Source of the DNA: an archaeon
Lineage (GTDB): Archaea > AGJL01 > Methanococci > Methanococcales > Methanocaldococcaceae
NCBI GenBank assembly: GCA_024278985.1
Contig: JAJRSC010000005.1
Location: forward strand, 1 to 40,187
DNA: 40,187 nucleotides
Direction of reading: 5' to 3'
The number at the start of each line of letters is the position of its first letter. Within the stretch, counting starts at the first letter, position 1. Below the pieces are notes generated by a model. It had not been told where the DNA came from, made no database searches, and was given only the letters and a program-made list of their open reading frames with translations. The translations under genes and the position numbers were made by a program. This document shows, in pieces, positions 1 to 29,420 of this stretch.

Positions 1-1102
<1,102 letters not shown>

Positions 1103-1161
1103 CAGCAGGGTGTCCGGGCACTGAAGGGATGTAGGGGTTTATGCACGGCCCACCATTTATT

Positions 1162-1283
1162 TCGGCACGGCGGCCATAGCGGGAGGGCCACACCCGAACC
1201 CATTCCGAACTCGGAAGTTAAGCCTCCCAGCGATGCCCCGAGTACTGCCGTTTGGCGGGAAAGGGGCGACGCCGCCGGCCACT
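1162..1283 (+). rRNA. 5S ribosomal RNA
   Basis: The sequence follows the archaeal 5S pattern. A 5' strand CGGCACGGCGGCC pairs with the 3' strand GCCGCCGGCC. Internal signatures CCGAACCCATTCCGAACTCG and GAAGTTAAGCC are present. It sits about 60 bases after the 23S end, the usual rrn operon order. The ends are set from the terminal helix and may be off by one or two bases. Confidence 0.95.
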
Positions 1284-1295
1284 TTTTATTTTAGA
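1283..1295 (+). terminator. T-rich terminator after 5S rRNA
   Basis: A run TTTTTATTTT directly follows the closing helix of 5S rRNA. Archaeal RNA polymerase commonly stops at such T-tracts. Since RNase P RNA begins only about 50 bases later on the same strand, partial read-through into it is possible. Confidence 0.45.
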
Positions 1296-1331
1296 ATATT
1301 ACATTTATTATTTTTATTTTATCAATTAATT

Positions 1332-1593
1332 TGGTGAGGGAGCTGGTGGCTATCCCTCCATTTTTGGAGGGAGGAAGTTCCGCCCACCCCATTTTAGGGG
1401 CAGATACCCCGAGAGGGGTTGGGAGAGGCAACAGAAACGACACGGCCCTGGAAGGATGTCGATGATAAAAAAAATTGAGAATTTCCAGGGAGCCGGTGAA
1501 ACGGGCCTCTCCCCTGCCCAGGGGTGCAAGGCGTTAAGCCGCTTAGCCGAATGCCACCGAAATTACAGAAGGCGGGCTATAGCTCCCACACCA
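1332..1593 (+). ncRNA. rnpB: RNase P RNA (archaeal)
   Basis: This is the catalytic RNA of RNase P, which removes 5' leaders from pre-tRNAs. The two ends form the P1 helix: 1332-1344 pairs with 1581-1593 with one mismatch. Conserved RNase P blocks are visible: GAGGAAGTTCCGCC near 1370, ACAGAAAC at 1431, and ACAGAAGGCGGGCTATAG at 1565-1582. The helix CCTGGAA/TTCCAGG near 1450-1490 fits P12 and is capped by an unusually A-rich loop (GATGATAAAAAAAATTGAG) in an otherwise GC-rich molecule. The 262-nt size is close to what I recall for methanococcal (type M) RNAs. The boundaries come from P1. Confidence 0.93.
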
Positions 1594-21449: not shown

Positions 21450-22741
21450 TTTATCAACTCTTCAAATTTAATCATTGCATTAATAACTTTATAATCCTCA
21501 AATGGTTTAGCCATTATTTGTAAGCCTACTGGAATTCCATTTATTTCTCCAGCTTTAACTGTCCCTGCAGGAAGACCACATAAATTGGCAATAACAGTTA
21601 AAACATCATAACTATACATTTCTATAGGAGTTAATTTTTCTCCAAGTTTATGAGGTAGTTTTGGAACAGTTGGAGCTAAAATAACATCAATATCCTTTAA
21701 TATTCTACTCATTTCTTTTCTCATTAAATTCCTTGCTTTTAATGCCTTTTTATAATATTTTCCACTATACTCTTTTTGACTAATTAAGGAACCTATAGTT
21801 ATTCTTCTTAAAACCTCTTCTCCACATACCTCTTCTATCCTATATCCATACCTTCTACCATCATATCTTCTTGTTGCTGAGAAAAATTCAACATAGTTAA
21901 TTAAGTAGTATGTTGGTAGTGCTAAATCTACATAAGGATAGTTAAGATATTCTATTTCACAGCCAATATCTTTAAAAATTTCAATACTTTTTTCTATTAT
22001 TTCTCTTATTTTTTTATCTGCTACATTTAAAAACTCTTCAACAACTCCAATTTTAAATTTCATATCTTTCTTTTCTATATCAGGAATATTAACTGTTGTT
22101 GTATCTTTTTAATCTTCTCCTTTAATAATATTCATAATATTTAAGATATCTTCTGAGTTTTTTGTTAAAGGTCCAATTTGGTCCAAACTCATAGCTAAAT
22201 CTGCTAATCCATATCTACTAACTACTCCATAACTTGGTTTAAATCCAACAACTCCACAATGAGATGCTGGATTTCTTATACTCCCTCCAGTATCTGAACC
22301 TAATGAAAAGTCACATAAATCTGCTGCAACTGCTGCAGCACTACCACTTGAAGAACCTCCTGGGATTCTATCCTTAGCAACCGGATTTTTTGTTGGACCA
22401 AAATAAGAAGTCTCCCCACTACTTCCACAAGCAAATTCATCCATATTTGTTATTCCAATTATCAAAGCTCCAGCTTCTTTTAGTTTTTCAACAACTGTCG
22501 CATTGTAAGGAGCAATATAATTTTCTAAAGTTTTAGAAGCACAAGATATTACAAAACCTTCAACATTGATATTTGCTTTTATAGCTACTATCTTCCCATA
22601 TAATGGTTTTTTCTTTGCTTTTTCATCTTTTTCTAACTTTTTAGCTTCATTTATAATATTTTTATTAATTTCTAAAAAAGCATTCAAATCTTTATTTTTT
22701 TCAATTTTGTCTAAATATTCCTCAACTTTTTCAACTATCAT
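21446..22741 (-). pseudogene. gatA: Glutamyl/aspartyl-tRNA amidotransferase subunit A, interrupted by in-frame TAA
   Basis: GatA is the amidase subunit of GatCAB, which makes Asn-tRNA(Asn) (and Gln-tRNA in bacteria). Here the frame from ATG 22741 (GGAGAT upstream) gives the whole family length, 432 codons, but codon 211 (22109-22111) is TAA. The first part holds the catalytic Lys (VAIKANINVEG) and the Ser-rich motif IPGGSSSGSAAAVAAD, ending in IIKGED. After the stop the same frame continues KDTTTVNIPDIEKKD-MKFKIGVVEEFL, with the C-terminal part intact to the end. No frameshift and no good ribosome site is seen before the internal ATG at 22063. One base change (for example GAA to TAA) explains it. 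The gene is expected to be essential, so an error or read-through must be considered. Confidence 0.88.
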
Positions 22742-22751
22742 AATATCTCCC

Positions 22752-23744
22752 TCAGCAAACTCTTGGTATTGGGTCACCAATTGGTGGGTCTATAATTCTT
22801 TTTCCTATTCCTGTATCTAATAAAACACCCTTATGTTCTTTTGTAGCATATCCAATAATTTCTGCATTTTTTCCATATTTATGTTCTCTCAATATTTCTA
22901 AAACATCATTTGCATCTTTTTTATCAACAGCTATAATCACCTTTCCCTCATTTGCAATAATTAATGGATCTAAGCCAAGAATATCACATATTCCTTTAAC
23001 TTCCTCACTAATTGGTATTTTATCTTCATAAATTGTTATTCCAATTCCACTTTTCTCAGATAATTCATTTAAAGCATTTGCTAAACCTCCCCTTGTTGGG
23101 TCCTTCATTGCATGAACATTATAGTCTAAAATTGGTTCAATCATTTTATTTAATGGAGCTACATCAGATTTTATATTTATATCAAACTCAAAACCTTCCC
23201 TTTCTAATAATATTGCTAATCCATGCTCTGCAATGTTTCCAGATATGATAATAGCATCTCCCTCTTTAATATTACTGTCCTTACATAATTTTTTAACTAT
23301 TCCAACTCCAGAGGTGTTAATTATAATATCATCAACTCCATCACTAACCTTAGTATCTCCAGTTATAATTGGAACATCTGCCTCTAGAGATGTGTCATTT
23401 ATTGACTTCATAATTTTTTCTAAAACACTTGAGTCAAATCCTTCAGGAATTATAAATGAGAGAGTCAATGCTAATGGTTTAGCTCCAACAACAGACAAAT
23501 CATTAACTGTTCCTGAAATAGATAACCTCCCAATATCCCCTCCTCTAAAAAATATTGGTTTTACAGTATAACTATCTGTTGTAATGGCTATTTCATTGTT
23601 AAGTATATTTATTGTTGATGAATCATCTAAATCATCCAAACCTAAAGTTCCGGCTCTTTTTAATGTTAAATTATTTAAAATAATATCTTTTATTAATTCC
23701 TGCATTACACTGCCTCCAGCTCCATGAAGTTTTGTAATCTTCAA
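22752..23744 (-). CDS. hypE: Hydrogenase maturation protein HypE
   Basis: A 330-residue AIR-synthase-fold protein that converts a carbamoylated C-terminal cysteine into thiocyanate, the source of the cyanide ligands of [NiFe] hydrogenases. It has LHGAGGSVMQELI at the N-terminus, GGDIGRLSISGTVNDLSVVGAKPLAL, VHAMKDPTRGGLANALNE and the terminal PRVC with the modified cysteine. It is HypE rather than selenophosphate synthetase because of that C-terminus and the absence of the SelD N-terminal Cys/Sec loop. It overlaps mvk by four bases; gatA starts ten bases after it. Confidence 0.93.
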   Translation of the reverse strand: MKITKLHGAGGSVMQELIKDIILNNLTLKRAGTLGLDDLDDSSTINILNNEIAITTDSYTVKPIFFRGGDIGRLSISGTVNDLSVVGAKPLALTLSFIIPEGFDSSVLEKIMKSINDTSLEADVPIITGDTKVSDGVDDIIINTSGVGIVKKLCKDSNIKEGDAIIISGNIAEHGLAILLEREGFEFDINIKSDVAPLNKMIEPILDYNVHAMKDPTRGGLANALNELSEKSGIGITIYEDKIPISEEVKGICDILGLDPLIIANEGKVIIAVDKKDANDVLEILREHKYGKNAEIIGYATKEHKGVLLDTGIGKRIIDPPIGDPIPRVC

Positions 23745-24652
23745 TATACCACCTTACAGTCAAATATTTTAACATTCTCATTAATTAATCTATTTATTAA
23801 CTCTTTTTCTCTACTTTCATCAACTAAAATTAAAACACACCCTCCTCCCCCAGCACCAGTTAATTTAGCACCATAACCATATATATTTCCAATTTCAACA
23901 ATCTTATCAATTTTTGGTGTAGATATGTTAAGTTTTTTTAATAGTAAATGATTTCTATACATTAAATTACCTAAGATTCTTTTATCATCAATATTATAAA
24001 ATTCATCAATAAGTGCATCAATTTCTTTAAAAATAATATCCTTATCCTTACATTTAGCCACGTCTTTTATTATTTCAGATGTTCCTTTTTTTCTGTTCTC
24101 TACAAATACCACCAAAAATTTACAACTTTTTAACAAATCATTGTTTATTTTTTTCATTTTGTTTTTTTTTATTTCTAAGGTTCCCTTATAGGTTATAGTT
24201 GCTGTATCTGTTCTACTTGCTTTTCCTTGGACTTCCTTTTCCACTTGATAACCAAGTTCAGCAATCTCATCATCAGTTAATGAGTATCCAAAAAAATTAG
24301 ATATTCCTCTAATTAAGGAGAGGGTAATAGATGCAGAACTACCTAATCCACAACTAACAGGAATTTGTGAAGATATTTCTGTAAAAATTCCATTATTTAT
24401 ATCTAAATACTCATAAACCTTTTTTATAGCCATAAGGGAATATTTAAAATCTCCAAATTTTAGAGGATTTATTGTTTTAAGTTCCTCTAAGTTAATAGTT
24501 AATGATTTATTTAGATTATGTAAGTATAGTGTTATGTCATTACTCTCTTTAATGTTGACATAAGAGTAAAGGTTTATGGCCATGGATATAGCTCTATATC
24601 CATAAACAACTGCATGCTCTCCAAAAAGTATTGCTTTAGCTGGACTTTTCAT
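23741..24652 (-). CDS. mvk: Mevalonate kinase
   Basis: A 303-residue GHMP kinase that phosphorylates mevalonate at the 5 position, on the route to archaeal isoprenoid lipids. Motif 1 is the start SPAKAILFGEHAVVYGYRAI, motif 2 is IPVSCGLGSSASITL (near residues 97-111), and motif 3 is AKLTGAGGGGCVLIL near 267-281. The length matches the M. jannaschii enzyme. It overlaps the repeat-protein gene upstream by 17 bases and hypE by four bases, so it sits in a dense operon that also contains a lipid head-group gene. Confidence 0.94.
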   Translation of the reverse strand: MKSPAKAILFGEHAVVYGYRAISMAINLYSYVNIKESNDITLYLHNLNKSLTINLEELKTINPLKFGDFKYSLMAIKKVYEYLDINNGIFTEISSQIPVSCGLGSSASITLSLIRGISNFFGYSLTDDEIAELGYQVEKEVQGKASRTDTATITYKGTLEIKKNKMKKINNDLLKSCKFLVVFVENRKKGTSEIIKDVAKCKDKDIIFKEIDALIDEFYNIDDKRILGNLMYRNHLLLKKLNISTPKIDKIVEIGNIYGYGAKLTGAGGGGCVLILVDESREKELINRLINENVKIFDCKVVY

Positions 24653-26075
24653 AATTTATCATCTTTTTTAAATTTTCAATTCTTCTTACAGAAATCTCAT
24701 TATATATTTCTTTAAGAATACTTTTCTCAAAGTCCATATTTTCAGATAATTTAATTATATATGTATATTTTGCATCAATATTTTTATTTGTTAATATAAT
24801 TAAATTAAGATTGTCTATTAAAAGAGAAAAAACTTTTCTTATAGGTATTGAGGAAATAACATTTAAAAACCCTTCTAAATTAAAATCTATGTCTATTGAT
24901 TCATTGACAATTATAAGAAAATTTTCAAATCCAATTTCTTTAATATTTTCTAATATACTAATTATTTTTTTATTTTCAAGATTTTCAAAATCTGTTAAAT
25001 CTAATAGAACTAACATATTTTTTGGATTGTTTGTTAGCACTTTATAAAATATTTTATCTTCATAAATTCCCAAGAATTTTATAACTAAACTATATTCAAG
25101 ATATTTATCTAAAACCTCCTTACTGTAAAACTTTGTTGAATACCATAGTGGTCTGGTTGTATTAAAAAATAAATTATTATTTACTTTCTTTTTAAGGCTT
25201 ATAATATTTCTTTTTTCTTCTAAGTGATTATATAGAGAATCCAAACTAATTTTATCTCCAAAATTTAAAGATAAAAGATATTTTATTAAGTATCCTTCTT
25301 CAAATGTCTCTAATTTGAAAATTTCACATAGATATTTTAATTCTTTATATTCTTCATATTCTTTATATGAGTGAATTCCTAACTCCTTAGCTATATAATA
25401 ATCCTTAGCACATTCAAATCCTAAAAAAAGGGCATCGTTATAATCATAGGCATTAGTGAATCCTCTTTTTAGAGCATCAATATATTCATCATAATTACCA
25501 AAACCATTTTTAATTGCCTCTAAAAAAGTATTAAAATCTTTAAAATTGTTCTTAATACAAAATTTATATACATCACAATCATTATTAATAATGGTACTTT
25601 CTCTATAACCTTTAAATAAATAATGAAGTATATATAGGCCATCAAAAGGTTCTAAAATTTTCTCCTCTACTAATTTTCTATAACTTCCTATAAAACCCAA
25701 TTTTTTAGCTTTAAAGTATTCTTTAACATCTGAAAAGCCTGAATTTTTAAATTTTTTATATTCCTCTAAATCATTAAAATATTTTTTAAAAATATAATAT
25801 TCTTCTGCATCAAAGCCTAAATTCTTAGCTTCTATATAGTCATATAATGTTTTAAAACCATTAGCATCAATATAAAAAATTTTCCCATCTTTTAATGTAA
25901 AAAAGATATCCATAAATTTATCTTTATATTTAAACACTTTATTATTTGGTAGTATTGATAAAAATGTTTCTATATTGTTAATCTTAAACATTTCATATTC
26001 ATCAAAGTTAGGAACCTCAATATTTTCCAATTTTAAAGATTTTATTTTTAATACTACATTCTTAATATTTACCAT
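24636..26075 (-). CDS. Uncharacterised protein with 14-residue repeats
   Basis: A 479-residue protein I do not recognise as a named family. Residues 73-128 and 177-247 contain tandem units of 14 residues, pattern GFxxxxEYxxAxxL, with GF at 73, 87, 113, 127, 191, 205 and 219 and GI at 233. The units should form paired helices. The C-terminal part (353-440) is alpha/beta: NMLVLLDLTDFENLE (Asp359, Asp362), then IGFENFLIIVNESID, then NLIILTNKNID, a layout like PIN/NYN nucleases with few of their acids. It heads the mevalonate kinase operon. The start at 26075 has GGTAATTGAT upstream. Confidence 0.75.
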   Translation of the reverse strand: MVNIKNVVLKIKSLKLENIEVPNFDEYEMFKINNIETFLSILPNNKVFKYKDKFMDIFFTLKDGKIFYIDANGFKTLYDYIEAKNLGFDAEEYYIFKKYFNDLEEYKKFKNSGFSDVKEYFKAKKLGFIGSYRKLVEEKILEPFDGLYILHYLFKGYRESTIINNDCDVYKFCIKNNFKDFNTFLEAIKNGFGNYDEYIDALKRGFTNAYDYNDALFLGFECAKDYYIAKELGIHSYKEYEEYKELKYLCEIFKLETFEEGYLIKYLLSLNFGDKISLDSLYNHLEEKRNIISLKKKVNNNLFFNTTRPLWYSTKFYSKEVLDKYLEYSLVIKFLGIYEDKIFYKVLTNNPKNMLVLLDLTDFENLENKKIISILENIKEIGFENFLIIVNESIDIDFNLEGFLNVISSIPIRKVFSLLIDNLNLIILTNKNIDAKYTYIIKLSENMDFEKSILKEIYNEISVRRIENLKKMINYEKSS

Positions 26076-26227: not shown

Positions 26228-28087
26228 CTATTGTTCTTTTATTAGTTCTTTTAATTCATCTAAAAAGTTCTTATAACCAACTCTCTTCATAACATGGGCT
26301 AATCTCTCTCTTTGTGGTTTTTGAGAATATTTATTATATAAGTAAATAACTCCATCAATTATTTTTATTAATTCATCCAAATCTTTAACTTTTGTATTTA
26401 CTCCTATAATACTTCCTCTTCCTGATTTTCCTCCAATATACACCATATAACCATTTTCTTTTATTATTCTTGCTTCATTTGGACAGTTATCTATACACTT
26501 ACCACAGCCAACACATAAATTGTAATTTGTGTATGATACTGAACCTCTAATATATATACACTCTGGCTTACACACTTCAAAGCATCTTCCACATCCATTA
26601 CACTTATCTTCTAAAACTGTTGGATATCTTACTCCTACAATTCCAATATCATGAATATCTGGCCTTACACATCCAGAAGGACATCCACTAATTGCAATTT
26701 TAAGTTTATTAGGTGTTGGTTTTTCTTTAAATTTTTCATTTAATATTTTAGCCAACTCTGTTGTATCTATATTTCCATTTGTACAGTTATTTGCTCCAGG
26801 ACATGCTAATACACTTCTAACTAATGGCCCCTCTGAACCAGTAGATAATCCTACAGACTTAAGTTCATTTATAATATCTTCAATATCATAACCATTTGCC
26901 TTATGAAGTTCAAAACTGTCTCTATTTGTTAATTCTATTTTTAGATTATATTTTTTTGCTATCTTTAAAACATTTTCTATATCTTCATATGTATAAAATC
27001 CTGATGGTTTTGCTCTTAATCTTATAAAGAATGTTCCATCAGGTCTTTTTTTAACTCCTGGATAATCAGCTGCCCAATAAAATGATATTGGAAGATTATT
27101 GTTTTTTCTTCTTTCAACTTCTTTTTTAAATCTTTTAAGTTTTTTCTCTTCTAATTTTTTAATTTTTTCAATATTAACTCCTTCATATAATTCAATTGCC
27201 TTTTTTATTTCTTCTCCTTTTTTAGTTCTTATAATAACTGTTGAATAACCATCAGGTGAACCAACAGACCCAACAGAAACATCTGCAAGTTCAGCAGTAA
27301 AATCTCTACAAATTAAACAACCTTTACAAACTTCAAACTCCTCTATTTTAAATTCTTCAACTCTATCCTCTAAATAAACTAAAAATTTACCTCTCTTAAT
27401 ATCAAATTTTTTGACATCTTTAATATTAATTCCTCTATCTTCTAAAACTTTTTTTAAGCTTTCATATTCAAATTTCTCCATACAAAATAATCCAATTAAA
27501 TACTCTATTTTTGGCAATTTTACTGGTTTTCCATCTTTTCCAAGTTCATAATCATGTTTATTAAGATATGCAAAATATTTCAACTTTCTTAAACCATTAA
27601 TTTGGCAAGGTAATCCAACAACTGCAACCTTTTTTAATCCTAATTTACCAGCCTCTTTTAAAGCTTCAAGAGTTGAAACTGTATATTTTGATTTAGTTCC
27701 TTTTATTATATCCTCAGATGTTTGAACTATCATAGAAACAGGTTTCCAATATTCATTTTTTCCTACAACTATAGCCCCATCTATTTTATTATTCTCAATT
27801 AAATACTTTAAAAAAGAACTTACAACTCCACCATCTTGCCCTTCAATATCACCCTTTCCATAATAATATTCTTCCTTAAAGTTTTCTCTAATTTTTATTT
27901 GATATTTTCCAGAAGAAACTCTTGGACATGTCTCAAAACACATTCCATGCCCTTTTCTTAAACATTCTTCTTTTAAGTATGGTCTATCTTTAAAATCTAC
28001 AATGTTATTGGGACATACAATAGCACATACTGAACATTTAGCACACATATCTGTATTAACTATCTTACTCTCTAAAAGCCATTCCAT
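26228..28087 (-). CDS. fsr: F420-dependent sulfite reductase
   Basis: A 619-residue enzyme that reduces sulfite to sulfide with F420H2, detoxifying sulfite and supplying sulfur. The N-terminal half is an F420H2-oxidising domain like FrhB/FpoF, starting with a ferredoxin motif (CAKCSVCAIVCP) and including KSKYTVSTLEALKEA and VVGLPCQINGLRK. The C-terminal half is a dissimilatory-type siroheme reductase. Its siroheme-[4Fe-4S] ligands are CPGANNC and CPSGC, with a peripheral ferredoxin pair CNGCGRCFEVCKP and CVGCGKCIDNCP. The length equals that of the studied M. jannaschii protein to within one residue. GGTGA precedes the ATG. A 54-bp tandem duplication lies in its promoter region. Confidence 0.95.
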   Translation of the reverse strand: MEWLLESKIVNTDMCAKCSVCAIVCPNNIVDFKDRPYLKEECLRKGHGMCFETCPRVSSGKYQIKIRENFKEEYYYGKGDIEGQDGGVVSSFLKYLIENNKIDGAIVVGKNEYWKPVSMIVQTSEDIIKGTKSKYTVSTLEALKEAGKLGLKKVAVVGLPCQINGLRKLKYFAYLNKHDYELGKDGKPVKLPKIEYLIGLFCMEKFEYESLKKVLEDRGINIKDVKKFDIKRGKFLVYLEDRVEEFKIEEFEVCKGCLICRDFTAELADVSVGSVGSPDGYSTVIIRTKKGEEIKKAIELYEGVNIEKIKKLEEKKLKRFKKEVERRKNNNLPISFYWAADYPGVKKRPDGTFFIRLRAKPSGFYTYEDIENVLKIAKKYNLKIELTNRDSFELHKANGYDIEDIINELKSVGLSTGSEGPLVRSVLACPGANNCTNGNIDTTELAKILNEKFKEKPTPNKLKIAISGCPSGCVRPDIHDIGIVGVRYPTVLEDKCNGCGRCFEVCKPECIYIRGSVSYTNYNLCVGCGKCIDNCPNEARIIKENGYMVYIGGKSGRGSIIGVNTKVKDLDELIKIIDGVIYLYNKYSQKPQRERLAHVMKRVGYKNFLDELKELIKEQ

Positions 28088-28137: not shown

Positions 28138-28245
28138 TTATTTTATACATTATCTATTATATAGCTTATATTTTATAAATTTATATTTTTGTTATTTTAT
28201 ACATTATCTATTATATAGCTTATATTTTATAAATTTATATTTTTG
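28138..28245. repeat. Perfect 54-bp tandem duplication upstream of fsr
   Basis: Bases 28138-28191 are repeated exactly at 28192-28245. The unit holds TATA-like elements on the minus strand (TTTATAAAATATAAG and TGTATAAAATAA). One copy lies between the fsr start and the PHP gene end; the second reaches 19 bases into the PHP coding region and supplies its last six codons and stop. The result is a doubled promoter block in front of fsr. Confidence 0.9.
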
Positions 28246-29420
28246 TTTATCCATTTATCTAATGTTATTTTTTCTTTATAATAATTTGTTTTAATTGGAT
28301 AGAAAGATATCTCTCCATACTTTCCTCCACCACCTGGAAGAATATATATTTTACCTTCTCTAAACAATTTTATAGCTTCTCCAACTCTTTCATGAATTTC
28401 TTTTAATTCTTTAATATCTGCATTTATTAAGACATCTATTTCATTTCCATATTTGTTAATAAATGTCTCCCATATCCTTTGAACAGATTTTGTAAATATT
28501 CCCTTACCAATAGTTAAACTAATAATCTCAGCTAATGGAATTATTTTAATATATTTAGCCCTAAAATTTGGATGTTCTATTTTTCCATCACTCAACTCTA
28601 AAACTCTATCATAAACTCCTTTTTTTATTCTTCCTCCACATTCAGGACATTTAAAATTAAATTTTTTAGCATCCTCTAACTTAAATTTTATATAACATTT
28701 AGAACAGGCAGTTAAATGATATTTTCCAAGTTTTGGGTCTAATCCATAATTTGCTATAACTTTTTTATTTTTTATTGCCCTTTTTATTTCTTCAAAGTTA
28801 TCCTCCAGTCCTCCAATATTATCAACTATTAACTGATTAAATTCTCTTCCCAACCTATGGGGATGATAAGAGTGTGCATCAGAATTACTTAAAAATACAA
28901 ACTCTCTAAGTTCTTTAATCATATCTGCCATATCAGAATCTGCTGATAATCCTAACTCAATAAAATCTGGTTTTTTTTCATAACATTGATAAATTGAGTC
29001 AAAACTCTTATATATTGAAGTCCAAGGAACAAATGCATGAGCTGGCCCTATTAAAGAATCTGCTTCTCTAACAATCTCTAAAATTTCTCTTCCAGATAGG
29101 TATATTTTTGGCCTTCCTTCTTTGTCTATATCTTTAGAATATTTTTTAAACCTCTCTCTTAACTCTTCAGCTTTTTCTATATTTGGAACAATAATAAGAT
29201 GATGTACCCTATCTTTATCTTCTACTTCAGTAGTTAAAATTATATTTTTATCTTTAAATTCTTTTATTTCCTTTAAATATTCTGGATTTAAACAGTCTCC
29301 CGTTCCAACAATATCAAGACCTTTAATTTTACTGTATTTTATAATATTTCTTAAATTCATATCTTTAGATGTTCCTCCAGAATACTTAGAGTGTATATGT
29401 AAATCTACATTAACTATCAT
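28227..29420 (-). CDS. PHP-domain phosphoesterase with internal zinc ribbon
   Basis: A 397-residue protein of the TIGR00375-type PHP family. Metal ligands of the PHP fold are visible: VDLHIHSKYSGG at the start, VGTGDCLNPEYL, LTTEVEDKDRVHHLI, GPAHAFVPW near residue 127, and SNSDAHSYHPHRLGREF near 178. A zinc ribbon (CSKCYIKFK...KCPECGGR, about 232-257) follows, then a helical C-terminus with PGGGGKYGEI. The family is linked to hydrolysis of phosphoesters, possibly of nucleic acids, but no substrate is established. It starts one base after the htpX stop. Its last codons lie in a 54-bp tandem duplication. Confidence 0.85.
   Translation of the reverse strand: MIVNVDLHIHSKYSGGTSKDMNLRNIIKYSKIKGLDIVGTGDCLNPEYLKEIKEFKDKNIILTTEVEDKDRVHHLIIVPNIEKAEELRERFKKYSKDIDKEGRPKIYLSGREILEIVREADSLIGPAHAFVPWTSIYKSFDSIYQCYEKKPDFIELGLSADSDMADMIKELREFVFLSNSDAHSYHPHRLGREFNQLIVDNIGGLEDNFEEIKRAIKNKKVIANYGLDPKLGKYHLTACSKCYIKFKLEDAKKFNFKCPECGGRIKKGVYDRVLELSDGKIEHPNFRAKYIKIIPLAEIISLTIGKGIFTKSVQRIWETFINKYGNEIDVLINADIKELKEIHERVGEAIKLFREGKIYILPGGGGKYGEISFYPIKTNYYKEKITLDKWINKNINL

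Follow-up and report, generated by a model that had tools for sequence, protein, structure and literature searches.

The locus raises the question of what is done by a protein that joins a tandem array of 14-residue repeats to a C-terminal region reminiscent of PIN/NYN nucleases. The window, the whole stretch of 40,187 nucleotides from a genome of the family Methanocaldococcaceae that was analysed, carries one such gene, a 479-codon open frame with an ATG start codon, present as a single copy in its own genome. The modules of its product and the neighbouring mevalonate kinase gene (mvk) are listed below. The protein has the features by which the repeat-NYN family described here was recognized: the N-terminal domain, the GFxxxxEYxxA units in two blocks with a hairpin between them, the TFEE module, and the WYS linker.

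Table 1. Modules of the repeat-NYN gene and the adjoining kinase gene, in window coordinates ("genus" denotes the Methanocaldococcus orthologs).
Feature	Residues	Position	Strand	Basis or remark
Whole gene, putative repeat-solenoid / degenerate NYN protein	479 aa	24636..26075	minus	
N-terminal alpha/beta domain	1-72	25860..26075	minus	strands predicted 17-70; 33% identity to genus
Repeat block 1 (units 73, 87, 100, 113, 127)	73-139	25659..25859	minus	predicted helices; 59% identity to genus
Beta hairpin separating the repeat blocks	140-165	25581..25658	minus	strands 141-144, 147-154, 157-163, pLDDT about 90
Repeat block 2 (units 177, 191, 205, 219, 233)	166-247	25335..25580	minus	pLDDT 92-97 for most; 54% identity to genus
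Helical module with TFEEGYL motif, 3' of repeats	248-307	25155..25334	minus	structure model; T.EE kept in homologs
Linker module with WYS motif	308-352	25020..25154	minus	kept in homologs, including the one without NYN
Putative degenerate NYN (Zc3h12a-type) domain	353-445	24741..25019	minus	colinear with PF11977-matching orthologs; 21% identity to genus
C-terminal helix	446-479	24639..24740	minus	structure models; 38% identity to genus
Mevalonate kinase (GHMP kinase), neighbour outside the feature		23741..24652	minus	Pfam PF00288 and PF08544

About ten GFxxxxEYxxAxxL units of 14 residues were present in the two blocks. A position-specific score built from the family placed units at residues 73, 99, 113, 177, 191, 205, 219, and 233, and weaker ones at 87 and 127, with a spacing of 14 residues, widened to 26 from the scored unit at 73 to that at 99; this agrees with the first-pass annotation, which had counted at least eight units and one 26-residue step. 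The mean BLOSUM62 self-similarity of residues 73-250 at lag 14 was +0.50 versus -0.89 ± 0.19 in 5,000 shuffles (z = 7.3), and this was the sole peak, with no other lag within 5-44 coming near it. The GFxxxxEY-type motif occurred six times, versus 0.6 times in shuffles (maximum 4). As the same positions are conserved in the orthologs, the array is not a product of chance. In the full-length structure model (mean pLDDT 77), each unit corresponded to one helix of about 7-10 residues, in the order of five helices of block 1 (77-86, 90-99, 103-112, 117-125, and 131-137), the beta hairpin, five helices of block 2, and a longer helix. The expected helical repeats were borne out by the prediction, in which short helices follow one another regularly (pLDDT about 85-97), and the repeats probably form a solenoid, the geometry being taken from the secondary-structure summary of the model and not from its coordinates. 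No helical repeat family of Pfam (TPR, Sel1, HEAT, and others) was matched by any of nine family members, and a sequence search of PDB gave no counterpart of the 14-residue repeat.

The C-terminal alpha/beta region contains the three segments in which a PIN/NYN-like order had been read, LLDLTDF (about residues 357-363), FLIIVNESID (386-395), and LIILTNKNID (425-434). Taken alone, the window copy did not bear out this reading. The protein had no match to PF11977 at E up to 10 and so stayed below its gathering score, sequence searches of Pfam, NCBIfam, and PDB returned nothing, and a profile of canonical NYN domains scored its C-terminus no better than shuffles and below the best of them. Foldseek with the full model against PDB and viral models, and with the C-terminal model against PDB, found no match at E <= 0.001 and no PIN/NYN fold, a result that formally goes against the proposal for this copy; one viral model, A0A8S5V100, was matched with a probability of 0.93 but an E value of 0.21. 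The C-terminal model itself consisted of alternating strands and helices (mean pLDDT 76, with low confidence in places).

The relatives gave a different picture. The C-termini of six of seven tested orthologs aligned with PF11977, four of the seven above its cut-off and with E values down to 6e-7; for five Methanocaldococcus orthologs, scores were 22.9-29.8 bits against a cut-off of 23, four of the five exceeding it. A profile of the Methanocaldococcus proteins (genus profile) aligned with canonical archaeal NYN domains at an hhalign probability of 98.4 (E = 6e-15), and the NYN domain of a distant homolog matched the structures of ZC3H12B, ZC3H12C, ZC3H12A, and KHNYN by sequence (E 2e-8 to 9e-5). 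These alignments support descent of the ortholog C-termini from an NYN/PIN nuclease. The window protein aligned with the ortholog L008 at 40% identity over 502 positions in blastp (E 2e-103), colinearly over the full length including the C-terminal helix, and the genus profile scored its C-terminus alone at 14.0 bits, the best of 2,000 shuffles reaching 12.0. Because the window protein is a colinear, whole-length ortholog of proteins that bear PF11977, its C-terminal region was assigned to the NYN domain, and colinear orthology and the genus profile together indicate its common descent with NYN domains. The PIN/NYN proposal was therefore upheld by the orthologs and by the distant matches to ZC3H12B and ZC3H12C, and not by the window copy alone.

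In KHNYN, the active site is formed by D443, D524, D525, and D543, and the D524A/D525A substitution abolishes cleavage (PMC12709174). The corresponding positions were compared in a family alignment (A3). All family members keep the motif-1 aspartate, equivalent to KHNYN D443 (D364 in L008, D359 in the window protein). The Methanocaldococcus proteins carry this residue and an aspartate in the second motif, with Y replacing D of the AD motif and SNA replacing SND, so that two core acids are lost. The window protein has D359, VNES, a deletion near the AD region, and TNK; D359 is the sole core acid left of the four, consistent with the partial acidic set noted on first inspection. In the distant homologs, which share the repeats and linker, the motifs read DGSN, VDAS, ADD/ADE, and SND, and three of these proteins (L061, L070, and L071) keep the acid set except for the D524 equivalent, which falls in a gap of the ZC3H12B alignment. 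By this comparison, catalysis has probably been lost in the Methanocaldococcus and window proteins. The genus proteins have other acids that might in principle take over, namely the D-E pair immediately preceding the AD site and the aspartates of FKDY and VMD.

Orthologs were found in nine of 13 other Methanocaldococcus genomes, with 43-46% identity in the aligned region, and in two genomes of another family of the same order; homologs of the same architecture were found in three genomes of one distant archaeal genus. Three near-complete Methanocaldococcus genomes (G002, G005, and G010) lack the gene, and in G005 the absence is clean, aroE directly adjoining the nucleotidyltransferase gene described below. 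The family is rare: of 393 genomes around genome G559, six gave a match; in four of the six it spanned the entire N-terminal part, and three of these four belong to Methanococcales. A single-sequence scan of genome contigs with the window protein returned nothing; a family profile search of the contigs returned three named loci, two from Methanocaldococcus and one labelled Methanococci archaeon. Two matches with E values of 0.01-0.03 (L013 and L014, the latter an SMC-like coiled coil) were taken as chance matches. In the homolog L011 of genome G020, a frame shift was seen at about 1468-1500 on the minus strand, before the end of NYN, the remainder lying in another frame.

For the Methanocaldococcus NYN domain, the three pairs whose dS exceeded 0.5 gave dN/dS values of 0.04, 0.11, and 0.18, similar to those of the repeats; two closer pairs gave 0.35 and 0.46, at dS values of 0.13 or less that are too low to weigh. 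These substitution rates show that purifying selection acts on the domain within the genus. Compared with the genus, the window protein is 54-59% identical over the repeats and 21% identical over the NYN domain, a domain that is 70% identical within the genus. In a tree of the shared part, arbitrarily rooted, the window protein grouped with the genus on a long branch (0.91), and a homolog without NYN fell on the side of the distant genus.

No relative was found among viral contigs and phages, and plasmids gave just two weak matches, to the NYN domain only. PADLOC and PHROGs gave no match, and a defence or phage origin is therefore unsupported. Literature searches with the presumed M. jannaschii gene name, with NYN and these genera, and with a 14-residue archaeal repeat found nothing; a search for NYN domains in archaea found one paper, about pseudomurein genes. 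In Methanocaldococcus, no full-length family model covers the gene.

When archaeal genomes were searched with PF11977, a 718-aa protein of the distant genus (L041/L061) with two repeat sets and NYN emerged, and the L061 type was present in two more genomes of that genus. A five-unit profile (A4) then served for a repeat search of archaeal genomes, and the repeat was found in a few others, of 1.3-4.2 Mb. Among the proteins recovered, L140 (645 aa) joins the repeat to an NYN domain with DGSN and SND, L137 is a 323-aa repeat protein, and L141 is a large repeat protein with calcium-binding-like repeats and a membrane segment. In archaeal genomes of about 3-4 Mb, an 880-aa protein (L136, at L136:3034-5676) joins the repeat to a RING-like C-terminus and two shorter repeat proteins (L139 and L142) have similar cysteine-rich ends, the RING-like label for all three being based on cysteine spacing. 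Homolog L138 (L155:4086-5309, 407 aa) comprises the N-domain, repeats, helical module, and WYS linker and ends where NYN would start, with no NYN in the DNA downstream; its blastp E values were 4e-31 to the window protein and 1e-44 or better to L008.

The gene overlaps mvk by 17 nt, and it had been placed at the head of a mevalonate kinase operon with an unexplained tie to isoprenoid, tRNA, and hydrogenase-maturation genes. This tie did not hold in relatives. In nine genus orthologs, the stop of the gene overlaps by 4 nt the start of a PF01909 nucleotidyltransferase gene; mvk is the next gene in most genus genomes. G011 and G003 have mvk at another site, and the place after the nucleotidyltransferase gene is taken in G011 by an intein-containing rtcB (L062:3951-6875). 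In the window genome the nucleotidyltransferase gene is on another contig and the repeat gene lies directly upstream of mvk, and the neighbours of the distant homologs are leuS and ribosomal protein genes. Since relatives carry the nucleotidyltransferase between the two genes, the association with mvk and isoprenoid genes is positional, and an operon function with mvk was rejected, given also the displaced mvk in G011 and G003 and the other neighbours of the distant homologs. The nucleotidyltransferase was found in every Methanococcales genome searched, with or without the repeat-NYN gene, and it is therefore not an obligate partner.

Several other features of the window were recorded. Upstream on the same strand, 26228-28087 encodes a fusion of FrhB/FdhB and sulfite-reductase domains that also bears ferredoxin motifs and belongs to the F420-dependent sulfite reductase type. 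The 397-aa protein of 28227-29420 had no significant Pfam match and carries an N-terminal HxH motif that we presume to be like that of PHP phosphoesterases or endonuclease Q. A gatA-like gene on the minus strand contains one in-frame TAA (22109-22111) between flanking ORFs of 223 aa and 205 aa, which is either a sequencing error or a real stop. The start of the window (1-1591) holds in a row the 3′ part of 23S rRNA, 5S rRNA, and archaeal RNase P RNA, and a GC-rich ORF at 192-587, antisense to the rRNA, was rejected as a gene.

The reading that we prefer, with a probability of roughly 0.55, is that an NYN endoribonuclease of the Zc3h12a type gave rise to a protein with a binding or scaffold role, in which the solenoid probably binds RNA or RNP and the nuclease domain is now a pseudonuclease. 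The one-helix repeats, split by the hairpin and followed by the helical module, would form an elongated surface, and RNA or RNP is its suggested ligand because the ancestral domain is a nuclease. In the ancestral form, this surface would have presented the target to a C-terminal metal-dependent NYN nuclease, an architecture that is still found, acids included, in the distant genus and in a single large archaeal genome. In Methanococcales, core catalytic acids were lost, in the simplest account stepwise, with the NYN domain kept, so that the protein would act without cutting; in the window species, NYN has diverged further, with one acid kept. The main rival, although an unlikely one, is that the solenoid is a protein-protein scaffold that does not bind RNA and the NYN remnant only a structural cap. 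It is the main rival because the repeat also adjoins RING-like regions, a setting that suits protein binding as well as RNA binding; the contexts of L136, L139, L142, and L141 are unrelated to RNA, and L138 lacks NYN entirely. Against it, L061, L114, and L140, outside Methanococcales, have the same helical module and an apparently intact RNase domain after the repeats.

The low identity of the window NYN domain, its deletion, its long branch, and the absence of the gene from three near-complete genomes would also fit a decaying gene that nears loss and has no function now. We consider this improbable, since the 479-codon frame is open, the repeats and the C-terminal helix are conserved, and GC content by codon position is still skewed in the NYN part (0.29/0.15/0.06). 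Still less probable is an active nuclease with a rearranged acid set, for which the invariant motif-1 aspartate and the genus proteins' aspartate in VMD/VID and D-E pair near the lost site could speak; against it, the metal site of KHNYN includes D524/D525 and D543 (PMC12709174), whose counterparts in the genus are a non-acidic core-column residue and A, and in the window protein are missing or K. The 4-nt overlap with the PF01909 gene would suit a HEPN-MNT-like toxin-antitoxin or regulatory pair with the downstream nucleotidyltransferase, a very improbable arrangement given the presence of that gene in all Methanococcales searched regardless of the repeat-NYN gene, its location on another contig in the window genome, and the lack of a PADLOC match.

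Under the preferred reading of a binding protein derived from a nuclease, the family forms a series of intact nuclease, conserved pseudonuclease, heavily degenerate copy, and absent nuclease domain, which lets one ask what a repeat-NYN protein does without cutting, and Methanocaldococcus is a setting where the gene can be tested. The helical repeat has no Pfam model and no sequence match in PDB, and it occurs in several archaeal lineages and in varied domain contexts. More tentatively, and at somewhat less than even odds, the 14-residue repeat may be a type of archaeal solenoid not described before, serving as a modular platform for binding that is joined to NYN in some archaea and to RING-like ends in others; in Methanococcales the nuclease would be switched off and the platform selected, and one homolog would have dispensed with the nuclease.

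Like TPR, Sel1, and HEAT solenoids, the window protein has helical repeats in a tandem array. Those families consist of two-helix units of about 34-40 residues, whereas the unit here has 14 residues and one short helix. Zc3h12a-type NYN ribonucleases (PF11977; ZC3H12A-D/Regnase, KHNYN, and N4BP1) are matched by the C-termini of the orthologs and distant homologs, but the eukaryotic proteins have zinc-finger or KH regions, which the N-terminal architecture of 14-residue repeats and WYS linker does not resemble. Relative to these nucleases, the distant homologs keep core acids, the Methanocaldococcus proteins have lost core acids, and the window protein has lost all but one. A parallel in working, with no homology claimed, is yeast Utp23, a PIN protein of ribosome biogenesis with a degenerate, non-essential PIN domain (PMC5416842), in which, as proposed for the window protein, the nuclease fold is kept without its catalytic residues and the binding role is what matters.
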